From IMG/VR virus record IMGVR_UViG_3300030406_002411, positions 1-28,747 of that record: a DNA stretch of 28,747 bases; one strand, given 5' to 3'. The position numbers and the translations under genes are program-made. This stretch comes from a virus. The notes beneath the pieces are model-generated. The model saw only the letters and a list, made by a program, of their open reading frames with translations. It was not told where the DNA came from and did no database searches. Position 1 is the first letter of the stretch, and each line of letters opens with the position of its first letter. Shown here in pieces: positions 8,725 to 24,940 of this stretch.

Positions 8725-8944
8725 TTGTTTTTACCACTTTTTCAAAATCACTCTTGAGGTTCATTAACGTTTCCAGTAAAACCATCTTCCCCTGCATTTG
8801 GAACATTTCCCGTTCCGATTGTGCCGTTACCAACCCCCGAAGCGTCAACTGGTGGAGGTCCGTCAGATAGTTCGTTAGGCCCTCCCATGCCTGTGGGTTG
8901 TTGACCAGCGGCCCCACTTTCTGGGCCAACTCCTTGTTGAGCAC
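8711..8944 (-). CDS. Small helical protein overlapping the portal 3' end in another frame
   Basis: 77 residues from GTG 8944. The start has a strong Shine-Dalgarno (AAGAGG, 8953-8958) eight bases upstream. About 197 bases overlap the last 65 codons of the portal gene in a different frame. The protein has a sensible, mostly helical sequence (ELAQKVGPLVNNPQAWEGL, LHQLTLRGLVTAQSEREMF, QGKMVLLETLMNLKSDFEKV), whereas the portal frame across the same bases is a low-complexity Gly/Pro/Asn tail. The TAQSEREMFQMQG...LETLMNLK style matches short proteins encoded just after the portal in other podoviruses. It should be a genuine late product of unknown role, perhaps a portal-associated factor. Confidence 0.75.
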   Translation of the reverse strand: MLNKELAQKVGPLVNNPQAWEGLTNYLTDLHQLTLRGLVTAQSEREMFQMQGKMVLLETLMNLKSDFEKVVKTNAKS

Positions 8945-10847
8945 TTTGAATTCCTCTTAAAATTTCTGCGTAAATCTGTGCCTCGTCAAGATCATTAACA
9001 AGCAAATCTGGATCAATATCCTGTGAGATAGCTATCTCTTTAACGAGGTTAGGTAGTTTAATAAATGGGGCTAGTAATGGATTACCAACTGTTTGTAACA
9101 ATGCTGTAAGTCGCTGTGAACGAACTTCCTTTTGCATTACGGCGGATGTGCCACGAGGTTTAATTTCCAAGTCTCCAACTATTTCTGGAGAGTTTTCGTC
9201 GTATTGCATATTCCATTGGAAATACGCTTCCCCTAGAGGCTTAAGTAAATAATCATCAATGTTTTTAATTACGGTTTTTAAGGACAAAGAACCTGACCCT
9301 AAAAGCATAGATAGCCCTGAGGCTGTACGTCCGGTTCCTGTTACGCCTGTCTGTCCGTGAAGCACTGAGGGTATTCCGGTTTCTTCATCGGCTAACTGGC
9401 GGCTTATCTGGTACATTTGGATGTTTTCTGGTGCGGTGTTTGGAAACTTCAGTCCATTAATCGCTGTCCCAGTTACACCGGATTGCCGTCTGAATATTTT
9501 ACCCGGAAAGATATCAAAGTTTTGACCGGGAACAAGGCTAGCCTCGTCAACATCAAAAACAAGATTCCCTGCTAACGCTAAATTGTCTATTGCCATACGC
9601 ACATGCCCATTCATGAGCATCTGTGCGTCTTCCATGTTTTCTGCAACGCCAACACCCCATATTTGATAGGGATTGATTTCATAAGGGAATGCTTGAAAAG
9701 GGATTCGCGCTGGAGTAAAAGGATTCAAAACGCATCGTAAAATAATACTACCACAAACCCACGCGTTAATTTGAACCTGATCTAATTCATCAATATCATC
9801 AGAAATACTCATCCCGACTTCACGGGCAAATTTGGCGTCTAAAACACCCCAGTATTCTAAAACTTCAAAACGATTTTCTTGATAGTAAGGTTCTGTCTCG
9901 TCCTCTCGGATAGTGTCTTCATAATACTTATCCTCGTAGTTAGGTCCTTTTGCTATACAAGTTTCAATTGCCTCCCTATCAAAAAACGGAAGTGACATTA
10001 AAGACCGTAGCTGTTGACGATTCATACGATGACGCTGTATAACGTATTCACAGTCGTTGATATTTACAGCAGAAGGATCAGGGTGAAAATCCCAAAGTGA
10101 TACATGCTCAATTTTAGGAACCAATTTTTCCATAGGGTTGTAAGTTCGACCCTGATCACCGCTGTCCCAACGGTGAATTTGTTTGTAAAAATTGAATGGT
10201 CCTTTTATAACCCCTGTGCCTAGTAAAGCAGATTCAAATATCGCGTAACGTAGTACGTTAACAGCGTCAGTATCTAATAACTGATCATGAATCTGTTTTT
10301 CTAGTAAACGTGCCGCTTCTTTAGCCGGTTCAACTTGAGGTTCTCCGACATTAGATGGTCCCTCTGTAAGATTAAGGCCGTCATACTTTGAACCTAAATT
10401 AGATAGCTGAGTGGCACCCGGTGGCAATTCCATGCCATCCCCGGGAAAACCAAAAGGGCTTTGCATTGGTAAAGCTTGATCAAGGGGCGTGGTAACGTGA
10501 GCAAATTCAGCAATACCTTCTGGAACAGGACTTGATTCAACAACAATTGGAAACTTTTTATTTGCAAAAAGTATATCAATTATCTGTCCGTAGGCGGCTA
10601 GAACTTTAGTTTTTGTTATTTTAATAAATACTTTAGACCGCTCACTTTCACGATACTGTGTTGTTGAGTCGTAATAGCCTTTGTAGTTTTTGTACGCTTG
10701 TAGCCACCGCTCTTCATGACTGCGGCGACCATTTTCAGAATCTTCAAACTTATTCTGAATATACCCGGCTAAACCGGGCATTTGCTGTTCAGCGTCAATA
10801 ACTTCAACCTGACCATCGTCAGGCTGTTCCATAAACCCTTGGGCCAT
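8748..10847 (-). CDS. Portal protein
   Basis: 699 residues, close to P22 gp1 in length and much longer than T7 gp8. It forms the twelve-subunit ring at the packaging vertex. Characteristic segments are RRSHEERWLQAYKNYKGYYD and FIKITKTKVLAAYGQIIDIL near the N-terminus, KIEHVSLWDFHPDPSAVNI in the middle, and DEETGIPSVLHGQTGVTG with TASGLSMLLGSGSLSLKTVI later. The last ~75 residues are a Gly/Pro/Gln-rich tail, overlapped by another gene. The ATG has only a weak ribosome site and follows the preceding stop by two bases, so translation is probably coupled to the gene at 10850. Confidence 0.9.
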   Translation of the reverse strand: MAQGFMEQPDDGQVEVIDAEQQMPGLAGYIQNKFEDSENGRRSHEERWLQAYKNYKGYYDSTTQYRESERSKVFIKITKTKVLAAYGQIIDILFANKKFPIVVESSPVPEGIAEFAHVTTPLDQALPMQSPFGFPGDGMELPPGATQLSNLGSKYDGLNLTEGPSNVGEPQVEPAKEAARLLEKQIHDQLLDTDAVNVLRYAIFESALLGTGVIKGPFNFYKQIHRWDSGDQGRTYNPMEKLVPKIEHVSLWDFHPDPSAVNINDCEYVIQRHRMNRQQLRSLMSLPFFDREAIETCIAKGPNYEDKYYEDTIREDETEPYYQENRFEVLEYWGVLDAKFAREVGMSISDDIDELDQVQINAWVCGSIILRCVLNPFTPARIPFQAFPYEINPYQIWGVGVAENMEDAQMLMNGHVRMAIDNLALAGNLVFDVDEASLVPGQNFDIFPGKIFRRQSGVTGTAINGLKFPNTAPENIQMYQISRQLADEETGIPSVLHGQTGVTGTGRTASGLSMLLGSGSLSLKTVIKNIDDYLLKPLGEAYFQWNMQYDENSPEIVGDLEIKPRGTSAVMQKEVRSQRLTALLQTVGNPLLAPFIKLPNLVKEIAISQDIDPDLLVNDLDEAQIYAEILRGIQSAQQGVGPESGAAGQQPTGMGGPNELSDGPPPVDASGVGNGTIGTGNVPNAGEDGFTGNVNEPQE

Positions 10848-10849
10848 AG

Positions 10850-11071
10850 TTATTTACCAGATTCGTTATATAAAGAGGTATCGTCTGCCATTGAAAACAG
10901 TGACGGATCAACAGTTGTTTTTGTTTGTACCTTTGGTGCATCTTCTGTTAAAACATCAGTTTTTGCTTGCGTATCAAACTCTAGTCCTTCACGGTAGAGA
11001 TTTGATTCTCCCACATTAGCGTCAACTGTTTGCTTATCAGCATTCATGATTTGTGCTTCACTATAATTCAT
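10850..11071 (-). CDS. Small acidic protein upstream of portal, unknown
   Basis: 73 residues with AGGAG and ATG correctly spaced at 11071. Hydrophilic, acidic and probably disordered (EGLEFDTQAKTDVLTEDAPK), with no Cys and no hydrophobic core. Its stop is two bases from the portal start, and it lies between the recombinase-like gene and portal. No family recognised. It could be a small assembly factor, or chiefly act to couple translation of the portal gene. Confidence 0.6.
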   Translation of the reverse strand: MNYSEAQIMNADKQTVDANVGESNLYREGLEFDTQAKTDVLTEDAPKVQTKTTVDPSLFSMADDTSLYNESGK

Positions 11072-11088: not shown

Positions 11089-12996
11089 TTAATAGCCTCT
11101 TGTTCTGGCTCCAAATTCACCAAAACTCTGTAGTAGTTCATCTTGATCCATGTCGTAAGATCGTTCTAGTAGCTCTGTTCCTTCTTCTGCTGTTGCTTTA
11201 GCACCCATTTCTGCAAGCGGAATAACCGCGCCCGGAGGCGTTAATTCTGCCGCAAATTTTGCTGTGCGTAGTCCCGTTGAAACTTCAGGAGATGTGCCTA
11301 AAATTCCCTCACCTTTTTTTATATCTGCTTGAATTTCTTCTGCGAGAAAAACAGCCCCAACTGTAGGTAATATTGGTCCTAAAGCTTTTGTTAAGTTTAT
11401 GCCAAGTTTTTTTAAACCGTCTTTAAACTTAGCTTGATCCTCCTCAGAAAGGGGAGTACCAGAGGGAGTTTTTGATTTAGCTTCAGCACGGGTTTCAGCG
11501 AGTTTTTGACGCTCTGCTTGAAGTTGTTCTGCTTTTGCTATATTTTCTTCTTCTTGAGCTAAAGCTTTCTTTGTTATATCCTGTGCCGCTTTCTTATTTT
11601 CAGCAGTTACTAGTTCTCTTCTTGACTCTAATGACGCTAGCTCTTCCGTTGTCATTTGACGAGGTTCAACAACAGTTTTTTCAGATAATTGTTCGCCCCT
11701 ACGAACAACCTTAATCGGACTAGCATCTTTATCTGTAAAGCCGGGGATATCAAGACCCATAGCGGTTGCTGTCTCATTTAGAGTGCTCGCGCCAATTGCC
11801 TCACCAATCATACTTTCAAAAGAAAGTTGAACAGCCGCCAACGGGTTATCTGTGCGTACAATAGTTGAAAGATAGTGTTTGTTACCTACTTTTCCAATTG
11901 CCGCGTTAAGTTGAGCATCTGTGTGACCGAGCATTTTTTCTGCTTCTTCAGGATACCCAAGCTCACTCACAATCATAGTATAGATTATTTTACGGAAATC
12001 TTTAGCTTCGTCAAAAGGACGACCCAAGATTCCTTCAAACTGTTCCATTCGTGGAGTAATATTTTCCCGAATGGCGTTTGTCATTTTTTGTGTGGTTACG
12101 TCAGGAAATAGGTTGTCTGATCCTAATGACTGCGCTTCAACTGCTTGTAAAGCTAAAGTTTGATATAAAATACTGTTTTTATCAAGAATTAAATCAGTAG
12201 CTGTTTTATTACCCGTTGTGCCCACAGGAAATATAATTGCTCCTTTTTCAATATCAAAGTACCCCGGGGGACGATCTACTTCAATCGTGCTTAAGTCGTA
12301 AGCACCTAAACGTAAATCTGCGACTTCTCCGGGACGATACGGGGCAAGAGAGCTTGCAATTAATGCATTTGCAGTGCTGGTATCTTCAACGGTGCTTAAA
12401 CCTGCTACAATTTCAGGAAAAGCCTGTTTTGCAGGAGGAATTCCCTCAAACGATTTACTTCCTCGTGATTGTTTTGCAGAAGCTAAACCAGCGGCCTTTT
12501 CTTTTGGATTTTGATACAAAAAAGCCGCGTCATCTGTTACGAGAGTATGTGTGCCTTTAAGGGAATTAAATACGCCCGACCAACCGGGATCAATTGACGC
12601 CGTATGTTTAGCAATTTTCTCCATTGCCTCACGGCTGTTAGAAATGTCTTTAAATGGTGTGTCAAGAGTAAACCCGGCTTTTTGAGTACTATTCAATACA
12701 ACATTTGCACGGTTAGAGATTGTTCCGGGGGAAGGAGACTCCCCCGGCATTATTTTATTTTCTGGCGGAAACATTTCAGCAAACACTTTACCAATTGGTG
12801 TTGCTTGCGTAGCTGGTTGTAACTTAATACCCCGAGCATAAAAATCTAAAACAACAGACTCACGAACAGTTAACGTGCCATTCAGTAGTTTATCTTCAAG
12901 AAAAGAACGCACTGGCAAATCATTGTAACTTGCGTAACCTAACTTCTTTACAAGCTCTGTTAGAACCTCTTGCTGTGTTTTTCTTTTTTGTGCCAT
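11089..12996 (-). CDS. Tyrosine recombinase-like protein with long C-terminal extension, in the late operon
   Basis: 635 residues. Residues ~200-380 carry the tyrosine recombinase (phage integrase) signature. Box I Arg is R221 in PYRPGEVADLRLGAYDL; a beta-hairpin Lys may be K264 (TGNKT); the box II Arg is R335 in KDFRKIIYTMIVSELG, with Lys at the usual His position (332); LGHTD gives H358; the nucleophile candidate is Y375 (KHYLST). R335 to H358 spacing is 23, close to lambda Int. Residues ~110-200 could be a core-binding domain. Beyond ~440 come a Glu/Lys/Ala coiled coil (~448-508) and a hydrophobic segment (PILPTVGAVFLAEEI). No strong ribosome site is seen; the ATG abuts the terL stop. A site-specific recombinase between terL and portal is unusual. 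It may act in integration or concatemer resolution, or be a virion protein derived from a recombinase. Confidence 0.75.
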   Translation of the reverse strand: MAQKRKTQQEVLTELVKKLGYASYNDLPVRSFLEDKLLNGTLTVRESVVLDFYARGIKLQPATQATPIGKVFAEMFPPENKIMPGESPSPGTISNRANVVLNSTQKAGFTLDTPFKDISNSREAMEKIAKHTASIDPGWSGVFNSLKGTHTLVTDDAAFLYQNPKEKAAGLASAKQSRGSKSFEGIPPAKQAFPEIVAGLSTVEDTSTANALIASSLAPYRPGEVADLRLGAYDLSTIEVDRPPGYFDIEKGAIIFPVGTTGNKTATDLILDKNSILYQTLALQAVEAQSLGSDNLFPDVTTQKMTNAIRENITPRMEQFEGILGRPFDEAKDFRKIIYTMIVSELGYPEEAEKMLGHTDAQLNAAIGKVGNKHYLSTIVRTDNPLAAVQLSFESMIGEAIGASTLNETATAMGLDIPGFTDKDASPIKVVRRGEQLSEKTVVEPRQMTTEELASLESRRELVTAENKKAAQDITKKALAQEEENIAKAEQLQAERQKLAETRAEAKSKTPSGTPLSEEDQAKFKDGLKKLGINLTKALGPILPTVGAVFLAEEIQADIKKGEGILGTSPEVSTGLRTAKFAAELTPPGAVIPLAEMGAKATAEEGTELLERSYDMDQDELLQSFGEFGARTRGY

Positions 12997-14691
12997 TTAG
13001 TACCCAAAGGTTGCATCTTGTGGTTGAAAAGTGCTATTTTTTATGTCTTGGAGAGATTTATGAATACTGACATATCCGGTGGTTCTAGTCATAAGCATGT
13101 AACGCAACGCATCGTATGCATGGTCTTCAGCTTTTGTATCTACGTCTTCACTGTTTGTTTTAGAAAGAGGTATACCCGCAAGTTGTTTAATTATGTTTGT
13201 GCACGTATAAAAAAACTTTACTGTAGGTTCTCCCGTAAACTCATTGTCGCCAAGCCGACGATGTATTTCCATCTTGCCAGCAATACGACTTCTATCAGAC
13301 GGAACCCACCGACATCCGCAACGAATCATCGTTTCAGCAATGGAAGGACCATATCCTGTTTTGTTCCAACATGAAGAATCTAAAACAGTGTAATGAGGTT
13401 TAGGATCATATTGTTCTAATTCTAGTATTTTAGCGGCTAGTTGCTCTGCTGTAAAGTGTTTTACATAAAGCTCTCTATATATCCATATGTTGTTGTCCCA
13501 ATCGATTGCACCCCAGAGTACGCACGAAGGGCTTGCGTAGCCGTAGTCTGCCGCTCTGATACGCGGCCAGTTGGCGGGCAACTCAAATGGATCAACCACA
13601 TGTTTGATTTTGCTAAATTCAGGAAAGGCACATCCTTCTGCCACATCCCAATCGCCATCAAGTAATCTTTTTCTTTCGACTTCTGGGAGAGAGAGGAGCA
13701 TTGCCTCATACTGTCCATCCGCCATGAGATATGGGTTGTCGGTAAGTCGTGCGGGTACGAATTTTCTCCAGTATAGGGGTTGACCGTGCTTGCTGTGACC
13801 CTCTGGGTATATAAGTGGCTTTTCAGATTCAATATCGCTGGGGATGAAGCGAATGCCGGGTTCACCTTGGTCGATGTACATTTTCTTGACCCACCAGCCG
13901 CCAACGCCTCCGGGGTTAGCTGTGCAACGCATGGAGAGATTTGCGGAGAGTTCAGGGTCCGTGCTCCGTAAACGTGACCGTAGATATTCCCATACGTAGG
14001 GGGTGGGATACTGTGTAATTTCATCGATGGCTATCCAATTGAAGGCTTGTCCCTGATATCGGGTAACGTCCTTGTCTTTGTCAAGATAACTAAACCAGAT
14101 AGTGGCCCCCGACGGGAAATGCCATGTGGATTTAGACTCTCTAAAGGAGGCACCGGGAAACGCCTTGGGATAAAGTTGTTTAGATTTGGAGATGAGTTCA
14201 GTCAATTCATCCAGAGTGCGACGGAGTAATAAACCACGATGATTAGGATTATGGCAATAACGGAGAGGATCTGCCAAGAGAGCGAAACTCTTTCCTCCAC
14301 CAGCCGCACCGCCGTATAGTACATCTTGTTCAGGTGCTGACAGAAAGTCCTCTTGTGGTCCATCATTCGGTTTGAATACAACTTCAGATTCTCCCACAAG
14401 CTTTTTAACTGCGTCTGGTAAGGCATTTAAATCTCCTACATCAATTACTCGTGAATTTTTACCTTGTAGTGCTGTTTCTACTTTTTTAGCGGCACTCTCT
14501 CTTTTTCTAGCTCTTTGTATTTGTTTATCAGCCGCCGCCCGCTTCTTTTCGGCTTCTTTCTTAGAACGGCGTATACTCGCCTGTGTGGCTCTCCGAGCTT
14601 TTTCGGCTGTGGAGAGGTTATAACGTGCTTTAGGCGCGTCAGGGTCCTTTCTAGGGCGTCCACGGGGGCGTTTTAAGGCTTCACTGCTCAT
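12997..14691 (-). CDS. terL: Terminase large subunit with N-terminal AT-hook-like extension
   Basis: 564 residues. The packaging motor: an ATPase plus a nuclease that cuts concatemeric DNA. Walker A is GGAAGGGKS (residues 127-135), Walker B is WIAIDE (219-224), and the coupling segment TANPGG is at 258-262. The RNase H-like nuclease acids are D382 (AADYGYASP), D438 (VLDSS) and D523 or D527 (EDHAYDALRYM). Ahead of the motor lie ~75 basic residues beginning with an AT-hook core (KRPRGRPRKDP, residues 7-17) and a Lys/Arg/Ala helix, which is not part of a minimal terminase. The ATG overlaps the end of terS by 11 bases. Packaging strategy cannot be read from sequence alone. Confidence 0.95.
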   Translation of the reverse strand: MSSEALKRPRGRPRKDPDAPKARYNLSTAEKARRATQASIRRSKKEAEKKRAAADKQIQRARKRESAAKKVETALQGKNSRVIDVGDLNALPDAVKKLVGESEVVFKPNDGPQEDFLSAPEQDVLYGGAAGGGKSFALLADPLRYCHNPNHRGLLLRRTLDELTELISKSKQLYPKAFPGASFRESKSTWHFPSGATIWFSYLDKDKDVTRYQGQAFNWIAIDEITQYPTPYVWEYLRSRLRSTDPELSANLSMRCTANPGGVGGWWVKKMYIDQGEPGIRFIPSDIESEKPLIYPEGHSKHGQPLYWRKFVPARLTDNPYLMADGQYEAMLLSLPEVERKRLLDGDWDVAEGCAFPEFSKIKHVVDPFELPANWPRIRAADYGYASPSCVLWGAIDWDNNIWIYRELYVKHFTAEQLAAKILELEQYDPKPHYTVLDSSCWNKTGYGPSIAETMIRCGCRWVPSDRSRIAGKMEIHRRLGDNEFTGEPTVKFFYTCTNIIKQLAGIPLSKTNSEDVDTKAEDHAYDALRYMLMTRTTGYVSIHKSLQDIKNSTFQPQDATFGY

Positions 14692-15175: not shown

Positions 15176-15205
15176 ATTATGGTATCTAACTTTTAAGTTT
15201 GTCAA
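15176..15205 (-). promoter_or_regulatory. Late operon promoter, sigma70 type
   Basis: On the minus strand TTGACA (15205-15200), an 18-base spacer and CATAAT (15181-15176). Start of transcription is expected near 15169, leaving a leader of about 85 bases before terS. Five of six bases match in the -10 and all six in the -35. Confidence 0.65.
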
Positions 15206-15220
15206 CTAAGATAAAAACAC

Positions 15221-15249
15221 TTGACGTAATTTAAATACGACAGTAAACT
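15221..15249 (+). promoter_or_regulatory. Divergent plus-strand promoter
   Basis: TTGACG (15221-15226), a 17-base spacer and TAAACT (15244-15249). It lies back to back with the late promoter; the two -35 boxes are 15 bases apart. No protein gene follows it on the plus strand before the terminator at 15301. Confidence 0.5.
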
Positions 15250-15255
15250 GGGTTT

Positions 15256-15332
15256 GTAAGCCCACGGGGGTATACCCCCAAGCTTATCCCGCCGCATACG
15301 CCCGCAGGTATCCCCTACTTGCGGGTTTTTTT
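15256..15332 (+). ncRNA. Candidate small RNA, about 77 nt, unknown
   Basis: Between the plus promoter and an intrinsic terminator there is no ORF, but there is compact structure. A perfect GGGGG-TATA-CCCCC stem (15266-15279) is followed by the terminator stem (15301-15325). A further stem, TGGGTT-TGTA-AGCCCA (15249-15264), spans the expected start site. The layout fits a short structured transcript. It could instead be an attenuated leader or a transcript that primes replication. Confidence 0.4.
15301..15332 (+). terminator. Intrinsic terminator, plus strand
   Basis: Ten-bp stem CCCGCAGGTA / TACTTGCGGG with one G-U pair and loop TCCCC, followed directly by seven T (15326-15332). A textbook rho-independent terminator. 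Confidence 0.85.
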
Positions 15333-15673
15333 ATGCCCGCTGGCACCGTTGGTACCTAACGGTAAGCCGGGAGTGTGCAATATTTGTACAACAACCTAAA
15401 AATAAAAAAAATACCGTTAGTTTGCATACGTATACCCCTACACCCCGCGTGGCCCTAGCCGCCCGCACCCCAATAAATCTTTTAATTACCATCGGTGATG
15501 CCCGCGATATCAGCCATTGGGTAAAACCGCCAGTATTCATCGTGCGTTCTAAAAGGTAATTGGTCACGCGCCACCTGTGTGCCTGAACTCCAGTGACAAA
15601 TCCAACCAAAAGAAGTTTCTAAAAGTTTCCCATCGGTCCCCTATTTGAATACCCCCACTGGACACCCAGAAAA
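15333..15673. other. Non-coding stretch with inverted repeats (possible att, pac or origin sequence)
   Basis: No credible gene on either strand. A strong hairpin occupies 15340-15370: CTGGC plus ACCGTT pairing with AACGGT plus GCCGG, with a two-A bulge. The core TACCGTTAG occurs again at 15412-15420, inverted relative to CTAACGGTA at 15356-15364. An A-rich segment lies at 15396-15411. Beyond 15420 I see only short dispersed inverted repeats (AATTACC near 15483, GGTAATT near 15555). Clustered inverted repeats beside the late promoter and near terS would suit a packaging, attachment or replication site, but nothing decides between them. Confidence 0.4.
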
Positions 15674-15712
15674 ACCCGAAAGCTTTACTGGTCAACGCTT
15701 TGGGTATTTTTC
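15674..15712. terminator. Bidirectional terminator-like hairpin
   Basis: ACCCgAAAGC (15674-15683) pairs with GCTTTGGGT (15697-15705) with one bulged G. ATTTTTCT follows on the plus strand, and the minus strand also continues into a T-rich run (TTTTCTGG). Confidence 0.6.
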
Positions 15713-15718
15713 TAGGAC

Positions 15719-15744
15719 AAAAAAAGGCCCCCGTAGTGGAGGCC
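15719..15744 (-). terminator. Intrinsic terminator of the regulatory operon
   Basis: On the minus strand GGCCTCC-ACTAC-GGGGGCC (15744-15726, one G-U pair) followed by seven T (15725-15719). It lies about 60 bases after the stop at 15803 and would end transcripts coming from the winged-helix gene. Confidence 0.8.
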
Positions 15745-15802
15745 AAAAAGCCGGCGGTGGAAATGAGATTGGAGGACTCAACACCGGCTTGAGGGAACGC
15801 AG

Positions 15803-16570: not shown

Positions 16571-17593
16571 TCAAGCCGCCTCCAATGCTAACCACTGGGG
16601 AGACTCCAACACAGCACGTACTTCAGCATTACGCTTAAACTGGACGCGATGTTGTTGAGCGTTACCCCGACTGGTTTGAAGCTCGGTGGTAGTGCCGTCA
16701 TCGTTCTGACGCTCCCACGTTGCATCAGTGTGAGTCGCCCAGTGTGTTAAGGCGTTATAGCCCGCCCACAGAGTACGGCCAAGCTCAATTTGCTCTTCAT
16801 TAAAACGATGCGTTAGGTAATCCAATAGTCGCCCATTGACTCGGGTAGTATTGTCACTGGATAACCTACGGCCTTCACCTGTCAGCCGGCAAACTGTGTT
16901 CTCTAGGATCTCAGTCCATTGGCTAGGATGCAGGTCGATGGTTCTCCATGCGTCCATCTTTTCCCGGTGGTTCATGAACATATCAAGCCCTAGGTTAGCT
17001 TTAGCGATCATCGCACTAGGGGACAAACTGGCGGTGTGCTTGCGTTTTTGGTGGTACGCCTTCTGCCCCCCGAACACCATCGTATTACGGCAATAGTCGC
17101 GGTAAGCACCGGAGAACACCTGAAACGCCCACGACATGTCAACGCTGTTAACGATATCGGCTCTAGCCGTGATGCCATCGCCTTTGCCGTCGATATCAAA
17201 CGTTAGGTCGTTAAAGTAAACAGCCCGGGAAGCTTTGCGGCCTCCCTCATACAACCGATCTACTACCGTCAGGTTTCCGGTGGGTAAGCTCGCATTATCC
17301 ACGATGGTGTTACCTTGGTGACGAAACACCTCGCCGTGGTCGACTAGCTTGTACGTCTTAGCGACTGGCGGAGAGTCCAACACCTCGCCACTGACAGTAT
17401 TGCGTAAAGCAAAAAACCCGTCGAACGGCTTATGACTAAAACCGCCAATAGTCGGCGTTTTTGTGTATAGGGGAATCTTGCTAATTTGCCCCCGCTCCGC
17501 AAACAAGTCGATACTGGTGACGTCATCGTGCACCATCTCAAGACCGTTGGGTATTTCACGGATCACCCCGTCCGGTATGAATTGACTCGACAT
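16571..17593 (-). CDS. DUF932-family protein (phage/plasmid-type)
   Basis: 340 residues from ATG 17593, which follows the upstream stop by one base (TAACATG) and has GGGGG eight bases before it. The in-frame extension to 17632 is rejected because it runs back into the preceding gene. The sequence shows DUF932 features: a substrate-like N-terminal half with TPTIGGFSHKPFDGFFALRN and KTYKLVDHGEVF, then MSWAFQVFSGAYRDYCRNTM, DLHPSQWTEILENTV and a C-terminal TLWAGYNALTHWATHTD. The family occurs in phages and plasmids, with no settled biochemical function. It pairs with the small gene upstream and shares its promoter. Confidence 0.75.
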   Translation of the reverse strand: MSSQFIPDGVIREIPNGLEMVHDDVTSIDLFAERGQISKIPLYTKTPTIGGFSHKPFDGFFALRNTVSGEVLDSPPVAKTYKLVDHGEVFRHQGNTIVDNASLPTGNLTVVDRLYEGGRKASRAVYFNDLTFDIDGKGDGITARADIVNSVDMSWAFQVFSGAYRDYCRNTMVFGGQKAYHQKRKHTASLSPSAMIAKANLGLDMFMNHREKMDAWRTIDLHPSQWTEILENTVCRLTGEGRRLSSDNTTRVNGRLLDYLTHRFNEEQIELGRTLWAGYNALTHWATHTDATWERQNDDGTTTELQTSRGNAQQHRVQFKRNAEVRAVLESPQWLALEAA

Positions 17594-17594
17594 G

Positions 17595-17996
17595 TTAGTT
17601 ACCCCCCTGCACAGATTTAGAAACCCCGTCACGCCAATCGATCACGGTCGTTTCAGTTTGTAGAAAATCGTCGGTAGTTTTGTCGTAACCCGTCTCTAGG
17701 TTTTCGATGTAAGTCCCATCAAAATACTTAATGGTAGGCTCTACGCCATAAGCGAGAATGGTCGCCCAAGCACTGGTGCAGTCAACGGCAACAGTCAATT
17801 CAGTACCGATATTCCATTCGACTGATCCGATACTCTGGCCCCCCAAGTGTCCAGACTTTCGGTCACTCATTCGCAACTTAATGATCTGGACAGGTAAGCC
17901 GTAGGCATCCTTTTTCAGTAAGAGAAACGTACCGGCATCGCCAGCAGTCCAAGTAAACTCCGATATCAGAGTTCCTTCAATCGTTTGCATATCCAT
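17595..17996 (-). CDS. Unknown protein, partner gene of the DUF932-like protein
   Basis: 133 residues. AGGAG stands eight bases before the ATG at 17996, and an extended -10 lies about 50 bases further upstream. Mixed beta-rich soluble protein (TWTAGDAGTFLLLKKDAYGL, GTELTVAVDCTSAWATILAY) with an acidic C-terminal third. No known motif, no membrane segment. The single-base gap to the next gene indicates coupled expression. Confidence 0.6.
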   Translation of the reverse strand: MDMQTIEGTLISEFTWTAGDAGTFLLLKKDAYGLPVQIIKLRMSDRKSGHLGGQSIGSVEWNIGTELTVAVDCTSAWATILAYGVEPTIKYFDGTYIENLETGYDKTTDDFLQTETTVIDWRDGVSKSVQGGN

Positions 17997-22883: not shown

Positions 22884-23406
22884 TAGACCTAATGGTAAGT
22901 TTACACCGCTTCCTTACTACGACAATTACTTAGTAAGTATTGGGTATAAGGTCTACGAGGAGGGTCGTAAGGAGTTTGATAACTATCTGTGCTTTACACA
23001 TGATGAAGAACCCCCTACAAAACTTGGGCACACTAAATTTCAGTATGTCTTAGATCGTGCTGATGTCATTGTAGGTCATAACATTAAGTTTGATCTCAAC
23101 TGGATTAAGTCTTGTAATTTTAAATATGATGGACCTGTGTATGACACGATGGTAGCAGAGTATCTTCTTGCGCGGTCAAGACGATGGCCTCTTTCATTGG
23201 AGGCAGTCGCTAAAAGGTATGAGGTCACTCAGAAAAAGAAAGACCTTACAGCGGAATACCTTAACTCAGGTAAAACGTTTGCACAGATACCTTGGGAAAT
23301 AGTCGAAGAGTATGGGCGGGCTGACGTTGATGCTACATGGGAAGTTGCGTGTAAGCAGGTTCAAGAACGTTACAAAACATCTTGGGAGGCGATCTATGGC
23401 TTCTAA
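22843..23406 (+). CDS. Stand-alone 3'-5' exonuclease (DnaQ-like, DEDDy)
   Basis: 187 residues. Proofreading-type exonuclease with all motifs: D7 and E9 (LTFDVETTH), D84 (VGHNIKFDLNW), and Y157-x3-D161 (YGRADVDATW). It corresponds to the N-terminal domain of family A polymerases such as T7 gp5 and Pol I, but here ends with its own stop. The start directly ahead of exo motif I matches the usual domain edge. The polymerase gene begins 11 bases before this stop, so the two proteins are made together and probably work together. Confidence 0.9.
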   Translation: MNILTFDVETTHISRPNGKFTPLPYYDNYLVSIGYKVYEEGRKEFDNYLCFTHDEEPPTKLGHTKFQYVLDRADVIVGHNIKFDLNWIKSCNFKYDGPVYDTMVAEYLLARSRRWPLSLEAVAKRYEVTQKKKDLTAEYLNSGKTFAQIPWEIVEEYGRADVDATWEVACKQVQERYKTSWEAIYGF

Positions 23407-24940
23407 GTTACTACCCACACTACGTCTCTCCTTTGAAATGACCAACGTCTTATCAAACATAGAACGTAATGGAATACATATAGATTTAAATGCACTAGAT
23501 AAAATTGAAGCTGAGTACAAGGATGAACTAAACAAACTAGAAAAGTTTTTGCAGGATGAAGCTCAAAAGGCAATGGGGGATACCCCAATCAATTTGCAAT
23601 CGCCTGATGATCGTTCCATGCTTTTTTACTCTAGGCGTGTCATAGATAAAAAGAGATGGTCTAGTATTTTTAATCTAGGCAGTGAGGTACGGGGGTCGAC
23701 TCGTAAGCAAAAGTTACGCACAAGAATGTCACAGCGGGACTTTAATGCAAACGTGCGCGTTAACACCGAAATCTTGTACAAAACAAAAGCCTCTAAGTGT
23801 ACAGCCTGTATGGGGACTGGTCGTAAGAGGGTGCTTAAAAAAGACGGCACTGTGGGTAAAGCAGTAAGGGTATGTCGTTCTTGTAACGGCACTGGATTAC
23901 TCTACGAAAAAACCTCTGAGTACGCCGGTTTTAAGATTATTCCAAGAGACTCTTGGGACACTGCTTCAGCAGGATTTAAAACAGACCACGAGACATTAGA
24001 TCAACGATTGCCAGAGCTTAGTGGAGAAGCTAGGCGTTTTGCAGAGGCATACACGCGATTCAACGCTCTGCGAACGTATCTTTCAACATTTGTTGAAGGG
24101 CTTAAGAACAATTGTGATCGGAAGGGCTTGGTTCATCCCGACTTCATGCAGTGTATTACAGCAACTGGAAGGCTATCTTCACGAAACCCAAACTTCCAAA
24201 ACATGCCGCGAGGCTCAACTTTTGCAATTAGAAAAGCGGTGACCTCTAGGTTTGAGGGCGGCAGTATCATGGAGGCGGATTACTCTCAGCTTGAGTTTAG
24301 GGTAGCGGGCTACCTAGCTAATGATCCACAGGCTTATCACGATGTTGAAAATCAGGTAGACGTGCATTCAGTTACAGCGGATATTATTGGGTGTAGTAGA
24401 CAAGAAGCAAAAGCGCACACCTTTAAACCTCTGTACGGCGGAACAACAGGCACTAGAGATCAACAGAGGTACTACCGTGCTTTCAAGGAAAAGTATGCGG
24501 CGGTGACTGCATGGCACAGAGATTTGCAGAAGGACGCTGTAGAAAAAGGGTACATAGAATTACCGTCAGGTAGACAGTACGCTTTTCCCGGCACTACGTG
24601 GAATGAATGGGGGAGTGCCACTAATCGCACAGCTATATGTAATTATCCGGTGCAGGGCTTTGCTACAGCAGACTTACTACCGATAGCTCTAGTTTATCTA
24701 ACTAAATTAATTCAGGAGTCAAACTGTAAAAGTTTGATATGTAATACAGTACACGATAGTATCGTGCTTGACATTTTTCCCGGGGAGGAACAAACTGTTG
24801 CAGACATGGTAATGGAGGCTATGCTTTCAATACCAAGTGAGTGCCAACGCCGTTACGGCATAGTTTACGATATGCCTGTCGGGTTGGAAATTAAAGTAGG
24901 TCCCAATTGGGGTAACCAAAAAGAGATAAGGACGGCATGA
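23396..24940 (+). CDS. DNA polymerase, family A, polymerase domain only, with zinc-finger insertion
   Basis: 514 residues from ATG 23396, with GGAGG six bases upstream inside the exonuclease gene end. The long in-frame extension to 23312 is rejected for lack of a site. Motif A is ADYSQLEFR with D295. The O-helix is RQEAKAHTFKPLYGG (R335, K339, F343, Y347). Motif C is NTVHDSIVLDI with H453 and D454. Between the thumb start (NLQSPDDRSMLF, ~66-77) and the region at ~195-235 sit two DnaJ-like elements, CTACMGTG (C135, C138) and CRSCNGTG (C160, C163), likely binding zinc. The Phe at the Pol I 762 position predicts discrimination against dideoxynucleotides. It lacks an exonuclease domain, which is supplied by the previous gene. 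Confidence 0.95.
   Translation: MASKLLPTLRLSFEMTNVLSNIERNGIHIDLNALDKIEAEYKDELNKLEKFLQDEAQKAMGDTPINLQSPDDRSMLFYSRRVIDKKRWSSIFNLGSEVRGSTRKQKLRTRMSQRDFNANVRVNTEILYKTKASKCTACMGTGRKRVLKKDGTVGKAVRVCRSCNGTGLLYEKTSEYAGFKIIPRDSWDTASAGFKTDHETLDQRLPELSGEARRFAEAYTRFNALRTYLSTFVEGLKNNCDRKGLVHPDFMQCITATGRLSSRNPNFQNMPRGSTFAIRKAVTSRFEGGSIMEADYSQLEFRVAGYLANDPQAYHDVENQVDVHSVTADIIGCSRQEAKAHTFKPLYGGTTGTRDQQRYYRAFKEKYAAVTAWHRDLQKDAVEKGYIELPSGRQYAFPGTTWNEWGSATNRTAICNYPVQGFATADLLPIALVYLTKLIQESNCKSLICNTVHDSIVLDIFPGEEQTVADMVMEAMLSIPSECQRRYGIVYDMPVGLEIKVGPNWGNQKEIRTA

Follow-up and report, generated by a model that had tools for sequence, protein, structure and literature searches.

A tyrosine recombinase-type protein with an exchangeable C-terminal tail, encoded between terL and portal in uncultured phages related to HMO-2011

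INTRODUCTION

Tyrosine recombinases of the PF00589 type, such as Xer, IntI4, the integrase of Tn1549 (Tn1549 Int) and lambda Int, combine a core-binding domain with a catalytic domain, and carry the residue set R-K-R-H-Y. The protein that we describe here resembles them in its domains, in this residue set, and in its profile and predicted-fold matches. It differs from them in ~250 extra residues at the C-terminus, in its position in a late operon, in a Lys that replaces the His of the HxxR motif, and in that its family includes a subfamily with Arg in place of the box III His. The related phages HMO-2011, CRP-2 and ctYwJ313 encode a canonical integrase that is likewise a tyrosine recombinase without the HxxR His (Met takes its place), but it is shorter (292–383 aa), has no comparable tail, and was not found in the contigs with the locus that were searched. 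This integrase lies upstream of the replication module, according to passages of the published account (PMC9038755). In the literature covered by our search, which left most subscription papers and preprints outside, no tyrosine recombinase has been described between terL and portal in these phages.

Three other systems invite comparison. Cre of phage P1 is also a phage tyrosine recombinase, and it acts on incoming DNA. To our knowledge, Cre has no such tail and is not encoded in a structural operon. Two Cre peptides were detected in purified P1 virions, and in the part of the report available to us the authors excluded Cre as non-structural (PMC9024508). The internal proteins of phage T4 join a diverse, anti-restriction payload to a conserved capsid targeting sequence, as sections of one source relate (PMC3012670). 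They offer an analogy of working only—diverse payload, constant targeting element—with no claim of homology, and they differ from the present protein in that payload and in that here the tail varies, too. Finally, the repressors MrpR and SroF have the tyrosine recombinase fold. In MrpR the box I Arg is lost (V137/S138) and V257 occupies what should be the place of the box II Arg, judging by its position in a table in an excerpt of the source (PMC10516654). The catalytic Arg lost in MrpR are kept in the proteins of this locus.

RESULTS

The gene and its neighbours

The window, meaning the whole stretch of DNA that was analysed, is a virus record of 28,747 bases; a longer contig, G001 (40,867 bases), is 99.7–99.97% identical to it over two overlapping pieces. 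The late operon of the window lies on the minus strand and encodes terL, a protein of 635 aa, an ORF of 73 aa and an SU10-type portal, in that order (Table 1). Pfam and PHROGs matches on both neighbours bear out the late placing given in the initial annotation. At the 12996/12997 junction (TAAATG), the ATG of the gene follows the terL stop directly, with no gap, and co-expression with terL and portal is therefore to be expected. A promoter-like site stands at the head of the operon; with 9.3 such sites expected in the region and 11 observed, it is weak evidence. The replication genes, including a family A DNA polymerase, are oriented opposite to the late operon. The DnaJ-type insert of this polymerase is a mark of HMO-2011-type phages, as stated in the portions consulted of PMC9038755.

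Small ORFs before the portal recur. In the nearer kin of the window, ORFs of 65–82 aa carry a motif resembling ES.LYREgLEF; small ORFs also stand there in four loci that have no recombinase gene (L082, L084, L085 and L095), with the motif weak or absent.

Table 1. Coordinates of features in the window
Feature	Position	Strand	Evidence or remark
Late-operon tyrosine recombinase-type protein with C-terminal tail, 635 aa	11089..12996	(-)	
Predicted core-binding and catalytic domain, residues 42-379	11860..12873	(-)	Region of the model aligned by VIA-align with IntI4, Tn1549 Int, lambda Int, XerH and Cre
R221, box I Arg	12334..12336	(-)	42/42 heads
K264, likely beta-hairpin Lys	12205..12207	(-)	Lys 35/42, Arg 3, Gln 1, gap 3; model confidence low at 260-264
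K332-D-F-R335, HxxR position with Lys replacing His	11992..12003	(-)	R335 42/42; position 332 variable
H358 (LGH)	11923..11925	(-)	His 24/42, Arg 16/42, Tyr 1, Lys 1
Y375, putative nucleophile	11872..11874	(-)	41/42; model pLDDT <50 at 368-382
Long helix (predicted coiled coil), residues 450-507	11476..11649	(-)	AlphaFold secondary structure
C-terminal tail, last 90 residues, swappable module	11092..11361	(-)	Identity with L040: tail 64%, head 22%; with L002: tail 26%, head 70%
terL	12997..14691	(-)	PF03237 4.7e-7, phrog_979 4.1e-60
73-aa ORF preceding portal	10850..11071	(-)	Small ORFs in same place in many loci
SU10-type portal, N-terminus MAQGFMEQPDD with GF motif	8748..10847	(-)	PF23899 3.5e-25; also PHROGs
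Promoter-like TTGACA-18-CATAAT, head of late operon	15176..15205	(-)	Weak evidence (see text)
Family A DNA polymerase with DnaJ-type insert	23312..24940	(+)	PF00476 1.1e-50; PF00684 5.6e-5 (below curated cut-off)

Relationship to the tyrosine recombinases

The initial annotation proposed an integrase-type catalytic core, to be checked against PF00589 and by structure prediction. On its own, the window protein matched nothing informative in Pfam, in PHROGs or among PDB sequences, and its tie to the tyrosine recombinases depends on relatives that bridge the gap. The nearer relatives in IMG/VR are 58%, 33%, 26% and 22% identical to it. Six sequences, with identities down to 18%, were aligned (alignment A2). 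Among the 34 invariant columns are R221, K264, R335, H358 and Y375, although which Tyr is lined up is the alignment program's own choice. PF00589 matches two of these six at E up to 1 (best 2.9e-9) and the integrase family phrog_1 also matches two (best 2.8e-12); as a profile against PDB, A2 found just two bZIP (MafG) chains at E ~1.

The comparison was extended to 53 proteins that occupy the same genomic place, between terL and portal. PF00589 matches 12 of them (best 5.1e-23) and phrog_1 matches 22 (best 3e-31). The profile of all 53 has as its top PDB sequence the archaeal Xer recombinase 4a8e (9.5e-17), followed by integrases, XerH, IntI4, XerD and lambda Int; one name fits ill (9i5v, RaiA, 7.8e-5), and rows at 0.22 or above are mostly unrelated helical proteins. 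In a hold-out test, each protein was searched with a core profile trained on rows less than 35% identical to it, nine rows (L048, L070, L071, L075, L088, L090, L091, L093 and L094) having been excluded from training by eye. With column positions derived from an alignment that contained the tested row, 45/53 proteins were found below 1e-3, the window protein at 5.4e-30; the best of 400 decoy ORFs reached 0.013. Eight locus proteins (window, L011, L012, L056, L064, L076, L079 and L081) were compared by tblastn with a phage collection. Four had local matches, to features annotated as integrase, site-specific recombinase or XerD, to one hypothetical protein and to unannotated records; the other four had none, and no record covered 80% of a query. 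By these sequence relationships, running through its relatives, the 635-aa protein belongs to the tyrosine recombinases. The initial annotation had named a lack of recombinase hits as part of what would refute it, and such hits exist.

The predicted fold agrees. The AlphaFold model of the window protein, built with 15 sequences, has a mean pLDDT of 70.5; confidence is low in the Tyr loop (residues 368–382, <50), in the stretch before K264 and in the tail. VIA-align superimposes the model on IntI4 with Z 12.0 (245 residues, 3.7 A) and on Tn1549 Int, lambda Int, XerH and other recombinases with Z 10–12. All 13 rows with Z of at least 10 are tyrosine recombinases, and they span residues 42–379. 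The structures of SroF and YopR appear in the same list (Z 7.0 and 5.3). Foldseek reached E 3.6e-3 at best, with nothing below 0.001. Values of Z below ~13 can reflect a common arrangement in helical models; we nevertheless accept a predicted core-binding plus catalytic fold for the window protein, because the top rows and the sequence profiles agree. A model of L056, which represents a second type of head (the first 350 residues), gave Z 14.0 to 4a8e (249 residues, 8.2 A) and a Foldseek E of 5.3e-5. Its VIA-align list also has type IB topoisomerases (Z 8.5–9.7), which rank below the Xer and integrase rows.

Catalytic residues and selection

The initial annotation had named R221, R335, H358 (in LGH) and Y375 as catalytic residues and Lys 332 as the substitute for the HxxR His, and all five stand where it placed them; K264 joins them as the likely beta-hairpin Lys. 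Their conservation speaks against coincidence. Conservation was counted in 42 divergent recombinase-class proteins with a full core. The box I and box II Arg are present in 42/42, the Tyr in 41 and the beta Lys in 35; R-K-R-Y is complete in 35/42. With its R/K/R/H/Y residues the window protein has the full set of the superfamily, the HxxR His apart. This last position is variable across the family. Its loss alone is no sign of a dead enzyme, for Met stands there in the three canonical integrases, and CRP-3, an int-bearing phage of the HMO-2011 kind whose sequence was not read, integrates at tRNA-Met, according to the part of the source at hand (PMC6918029).

Box III is more diverse: His in 24 heads, Arg in 16, Tyr in one and Lys in one. 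The Arg-type heads (L041–L044, L046, L047, L053, L056–L058, L062–L065, L079 and L092) often read QGR in place of LGH, and the Arg is kept across divergent members. Altered active-site chemistry in these heads is possible, and some members of the family may be unable to recombine DNA on account of the Arg.

Head dN/dS was 0.12 for L062/L064, 0.04 for L056/L057, 0.05 for L054/L056 and 0.06 for L046/L056 (dS near 2), the last three pairs sharing one cluster; two wider comparisons were saturated. The heads of these few close pairs are under purifying selection. Tails are looser than heads, at 0.60 (L062/L064) and 0.21 (window/L040). Kept catalytic residues favour a working recombinase, and from sequence we judge the protein to be probably active.

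Independent exchange of heads and tails

As the initial annotation noted, ~250 residues follow the core. They comprise a long helix (the proposed coiled coil, as predicted by AlphaFold), an Ala/Gly-rich, moderately hydrophobic stretch, and a short end motif. The hydrophobic segment noted earlier is present at residues 533–551, though weak (Kyte-Doolittle maximum 1.38) and without a clear membrane helix. A hydrophobic stretch with a maximum of at least 1.2 occurs in the last 260 residues of 22/41 proteins and in the first 400 residues of 1/41.

Taking the head as the first 350 residues and the tail as the last 90, we find that the two are exchanged independently among phages with similar terL. 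L012 and L020 are 100% identical in terL, 19% in the head and 94% in the tail; L020 was discovered because its tail matched that of L012. L049/L051 (terL 93, head 22, tail 79) and window/L040 (terL 91, with the values in Table 1) follow the same pattern. The reverse occurs in L062/L064 (terL 100, head 99, tail 44) and window/L002 (terL 92). An optional N-terminal module, the first ~140 residues, is common to different heads in L048, L054 and L058. Each of six records matched by the A2 model (4–41 kb) holds one copy, and hence no reservoir of cassettes is seen in one genome. Among the other ORFs of the fetched stretches, no tail relative was found at 0.01.

Distribution on the terL tree

The terL–portal interval was examined in the best 80 IMG/VR loci (from at least 80) for HMO-2011-like terL. 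Thirty-nine have a recombinase-class gene, eight another or unclassified long ORF and 26 neither, and seven are uninformative; the gene is thus present in 39/73 informative loci of these best 80. In those 26, terL and portal abut in 22 loci, and a small ORF alone separates them in four.

A terL tree of 83 rows, rooted at the midpoint, accounts for the 44 rows with a recombinase by 6 changes; shuffles required 27.8. One starred group of 56 rows contains all 44, together with eight rows with other proteins and four with none. The 30-row group of the window has the gene in 29, and L048 is cut by the contig end before the core. A second starred group, of 26 rows, is entirely of the gene-less class and includes HMO-2011, CRP-2, ctYwJ313 (one 219-aa ORF in the interval) and phiM6 (several ORFs). 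HTVC115P, with three small ORFs between terL and portal, is a long branch beside the 56-row group, its position unsure. The pattern suggests that the locus recombinase is ancient on one side of the tree and has been retained there. It is not essential, since L095, whose terL is close to that of L078, is without it, and the non-recombinase proteins of L088, L090 and L091 mean that the slot can hold other things. The phages in which this widespread, mosaic locus occurs form an uncultured group with relatives among the common phages of the ocean.

A motif shared with portal N-termini

The loose form of the end motif is [QNDSGET][GNS]F[ILMV]. A stricter form is present near the C-terminus (last 16 residues) in 14/41 proteins and near the N-terminus (first 16) in 2/41, and 13/1630 internal 16-mers contain it. 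A relaxed form occurs in the last 16 residues of 17/41 recombinases versus 1/285 other forward ORFs (63 loci); the motif and its relaxed form were picked after the ends had been viewed, and 27/41 tails are akin in one loose cluster, so p values overstate the case. At the N-termini of those 285 ORFs the relaxed motif is found 17 times, 16 of them in portals. Many portals of the group start M-[AS]-D-N-F-L-[EQ]-P or similarly (MAQGFMEQP in the window), and the stricter motif is present in 25/71 distinct portal starts of all kinds. Neither side is uniform. The relaxed motif is absent from 24/41 recombinases, the window C-terminus QSFGEFGARTRGY fits the motif in part only, the group portals of L045, L068, L071, L073, L076 and L092 are without it, and L100, L103 and L106, outside the group, have a similar portal start. 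As a lead from sequence, the tail and the portal N-terminus may bind the same partner.

A broader C-terminal tag, GG..V (8/49 locus ORFs, 68/5089 others, spurious frames included), was dropped as a specific signal, being common also in small ORFs upstream of terL. Several of these small ORFs (L020 1557–2245; L073–L079; L088–L091) end in a shared tag like KYANGGGVRKAK.

Integrases, prophages and att sites

HMO-2011 and its closest relatives mostly have terL directly next to portal; a canonical integrase, where there is one, lies elsewhere. The gene of the window, between terL and portal, does not have the early-region position of a lysogeny integrase. In a comparison of profiles, A2 and the canonical integrases (A4) matched with a probability of 1%, which is not significant. 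A model of the canonical integrase was built from HMO-2011, CRP-2 and ctYwJ313 and searched against 21 records. It matches its three sources (by construction; PF00589 finds them independently) and G017 (L116), and no record with the locus recombinase; among the 21 records, no canonical integrase was found in a locus contig. PF00589 and phrog_1 searches agree, and PF00589 also misses the locus gene in G001. HTVC115P and phiM6 have neither gene. In genomes or contigs of at least 37 kb, which may be incomplete, the canonical integrase is present in 4/6 without the locus gene versus 0/6 with it (p = 0.06; shorter records, hitless with or without the gene, were excluded). Exclusion of the one by the other is not significant, and it is plausible that the locus recombinase replaces the lysogeny integrase.

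A scan of GTDB contigs with the group terL profile, using two peptide patterns of limited reach, gave two distant relatives and no prophage of the group, and so lends no support to lysogeny. A contig of a Blastopirellula MAG (a planctomycete; L130) has a terL relative at 50% identity. The att-like sites that the initial annotation suggested near 15333–15673 received no support: repeat scans yielded only short, weak repeats, tRNA and Rfam scans of the window gave no match, and an Rfam scan of G001 gave none of tRNA type.

DISCUSSION

In our preferred reading, the protein is a tyrosine site-specific recombinase made together with the late proteins; it may take over from the integrase that HMO-2011 and its closest relatives encode for lysogeny in their early region. 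Its N-terminal part, the core-binding and catalytic domains, would recognise and recombine a DNA site. Its C-terminal part (coiled coil, Ala/Gly-rich segment and end motif) would be an assembly tail that docks where the portal docks. The docked recombinase would be packaged, would enter the next cell with the genome, and would act there at once, in integration or in circularisation of the incoming DNA. The tail, the motif shared with portals and the position in a structural operon favour association with the virion, and podovirus ejection proteins carry and swap enzyme domains, according to sections of a published account (PMC8954989). We regard loading into the virion as an even matter. The whole proposal of a late-made, tail-docked, packaged recombinase that acts in the next cell stands slightly below even. 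That the enzyme integrates or circularises phage DNA is a tentative suggestion. A little more tentative is the evolutionary reading, in which recombination left the early lysogeny region and became a function of the virion: heads of a polymorphic recombinase family were traded, the tail came to mimic the N-terminal docking motif of the portal, the enzyme is packaged at the portal vertex, injected and active before gene expression, and the Arg-for-His subfamily has a naturally altered active site. The initial annotation offered either a late or delivered recombinase or a virion protein evolved from an integrase, and both options may be partly right.

The main rival, unlikely in our judgement, keeps the enzyme in the producing cell. 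The protein would be a late, Xer- or Cre-like resolvase that resolves multimers or concatemers before or during packaging, and the tail would only tie it to the terminase–portal machinery. A similar role was proposed for a phage tyrosine recombinase by the phiCbK authors, in the part of their paper available to us (PMC3556154), and the location between terL and portal, the best PDB sequence match to Xer and the GTDB scan without prophages all suit it. From a housekeeping resolvase, however, one would expect neither head swapping between phages with similar terL nor the loss of the gene in so near a relative as L095. Terminase packaging, too, does not normally need a resolvase. A tyrosine recombinase near structural genes, with mosaic gene ends, might instead suggest a DNA invertase or shufflon that switches the genes around itself. 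We rejected such a cassette, and consider it very improbable, since the inverted repeats around the gene are only weak, the six A2-matched records have one copy each, and the other ORFs of the fetched stretches include no tail relative.

The remaining readings question what the head does, or to whom. A domesticated fold, in which the protein has given up recombination and serves in the virion, binds DNA or regulates as MrpR/SroF of SPbeta-type phages do, would accord with the VIA-align rows for SroF and YopR, with the lost HxxR His and with the box III Arg of 16/42 heads. Yet in MrpR the box I Arg is gone and V257 sits at the apparent box II place, whereas R221 and R335 are kept in 42/42 heads here and the Tyr in 41/42; we think this reading improbable. 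Quite improbable as well is a delivered weapon or counter-defence, in which the ejected recombinase would target the DNA of the host or of a competitor (at dif or att sites, or in resident prophages). Such a role would account for head turnover, by analogy with the T4 internal proteins, and fits tail turnover, but neither a target site nor direct evidence points to it, and kept catalytic residues do not by themselves discriminate.

A related group with a late, tail-bearing enzyme would alter the way in which life cycles of this kind are deduced from genome sequences. Should the tail be a packaging signal, it would provide a small tag for loading enzymes into a podovirus capsid. The locus supplies dozens of natural head–tail combinations and a natural His-to-Arg active-site series.

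Further features of the region

The late operon is separated from the next ORFs by ~600 bases of the window (15206–15802) that contain no clear gene; terminator-like stems lie in this stretch at 15300–15326 and 15744–15726. Beyond the late operon, a DUF932 protein is encoded at 16571–17632 (9.5e-16). The terL proteins end in FGY, which is invariant in the 8/8 that were aligned (alignment A3).
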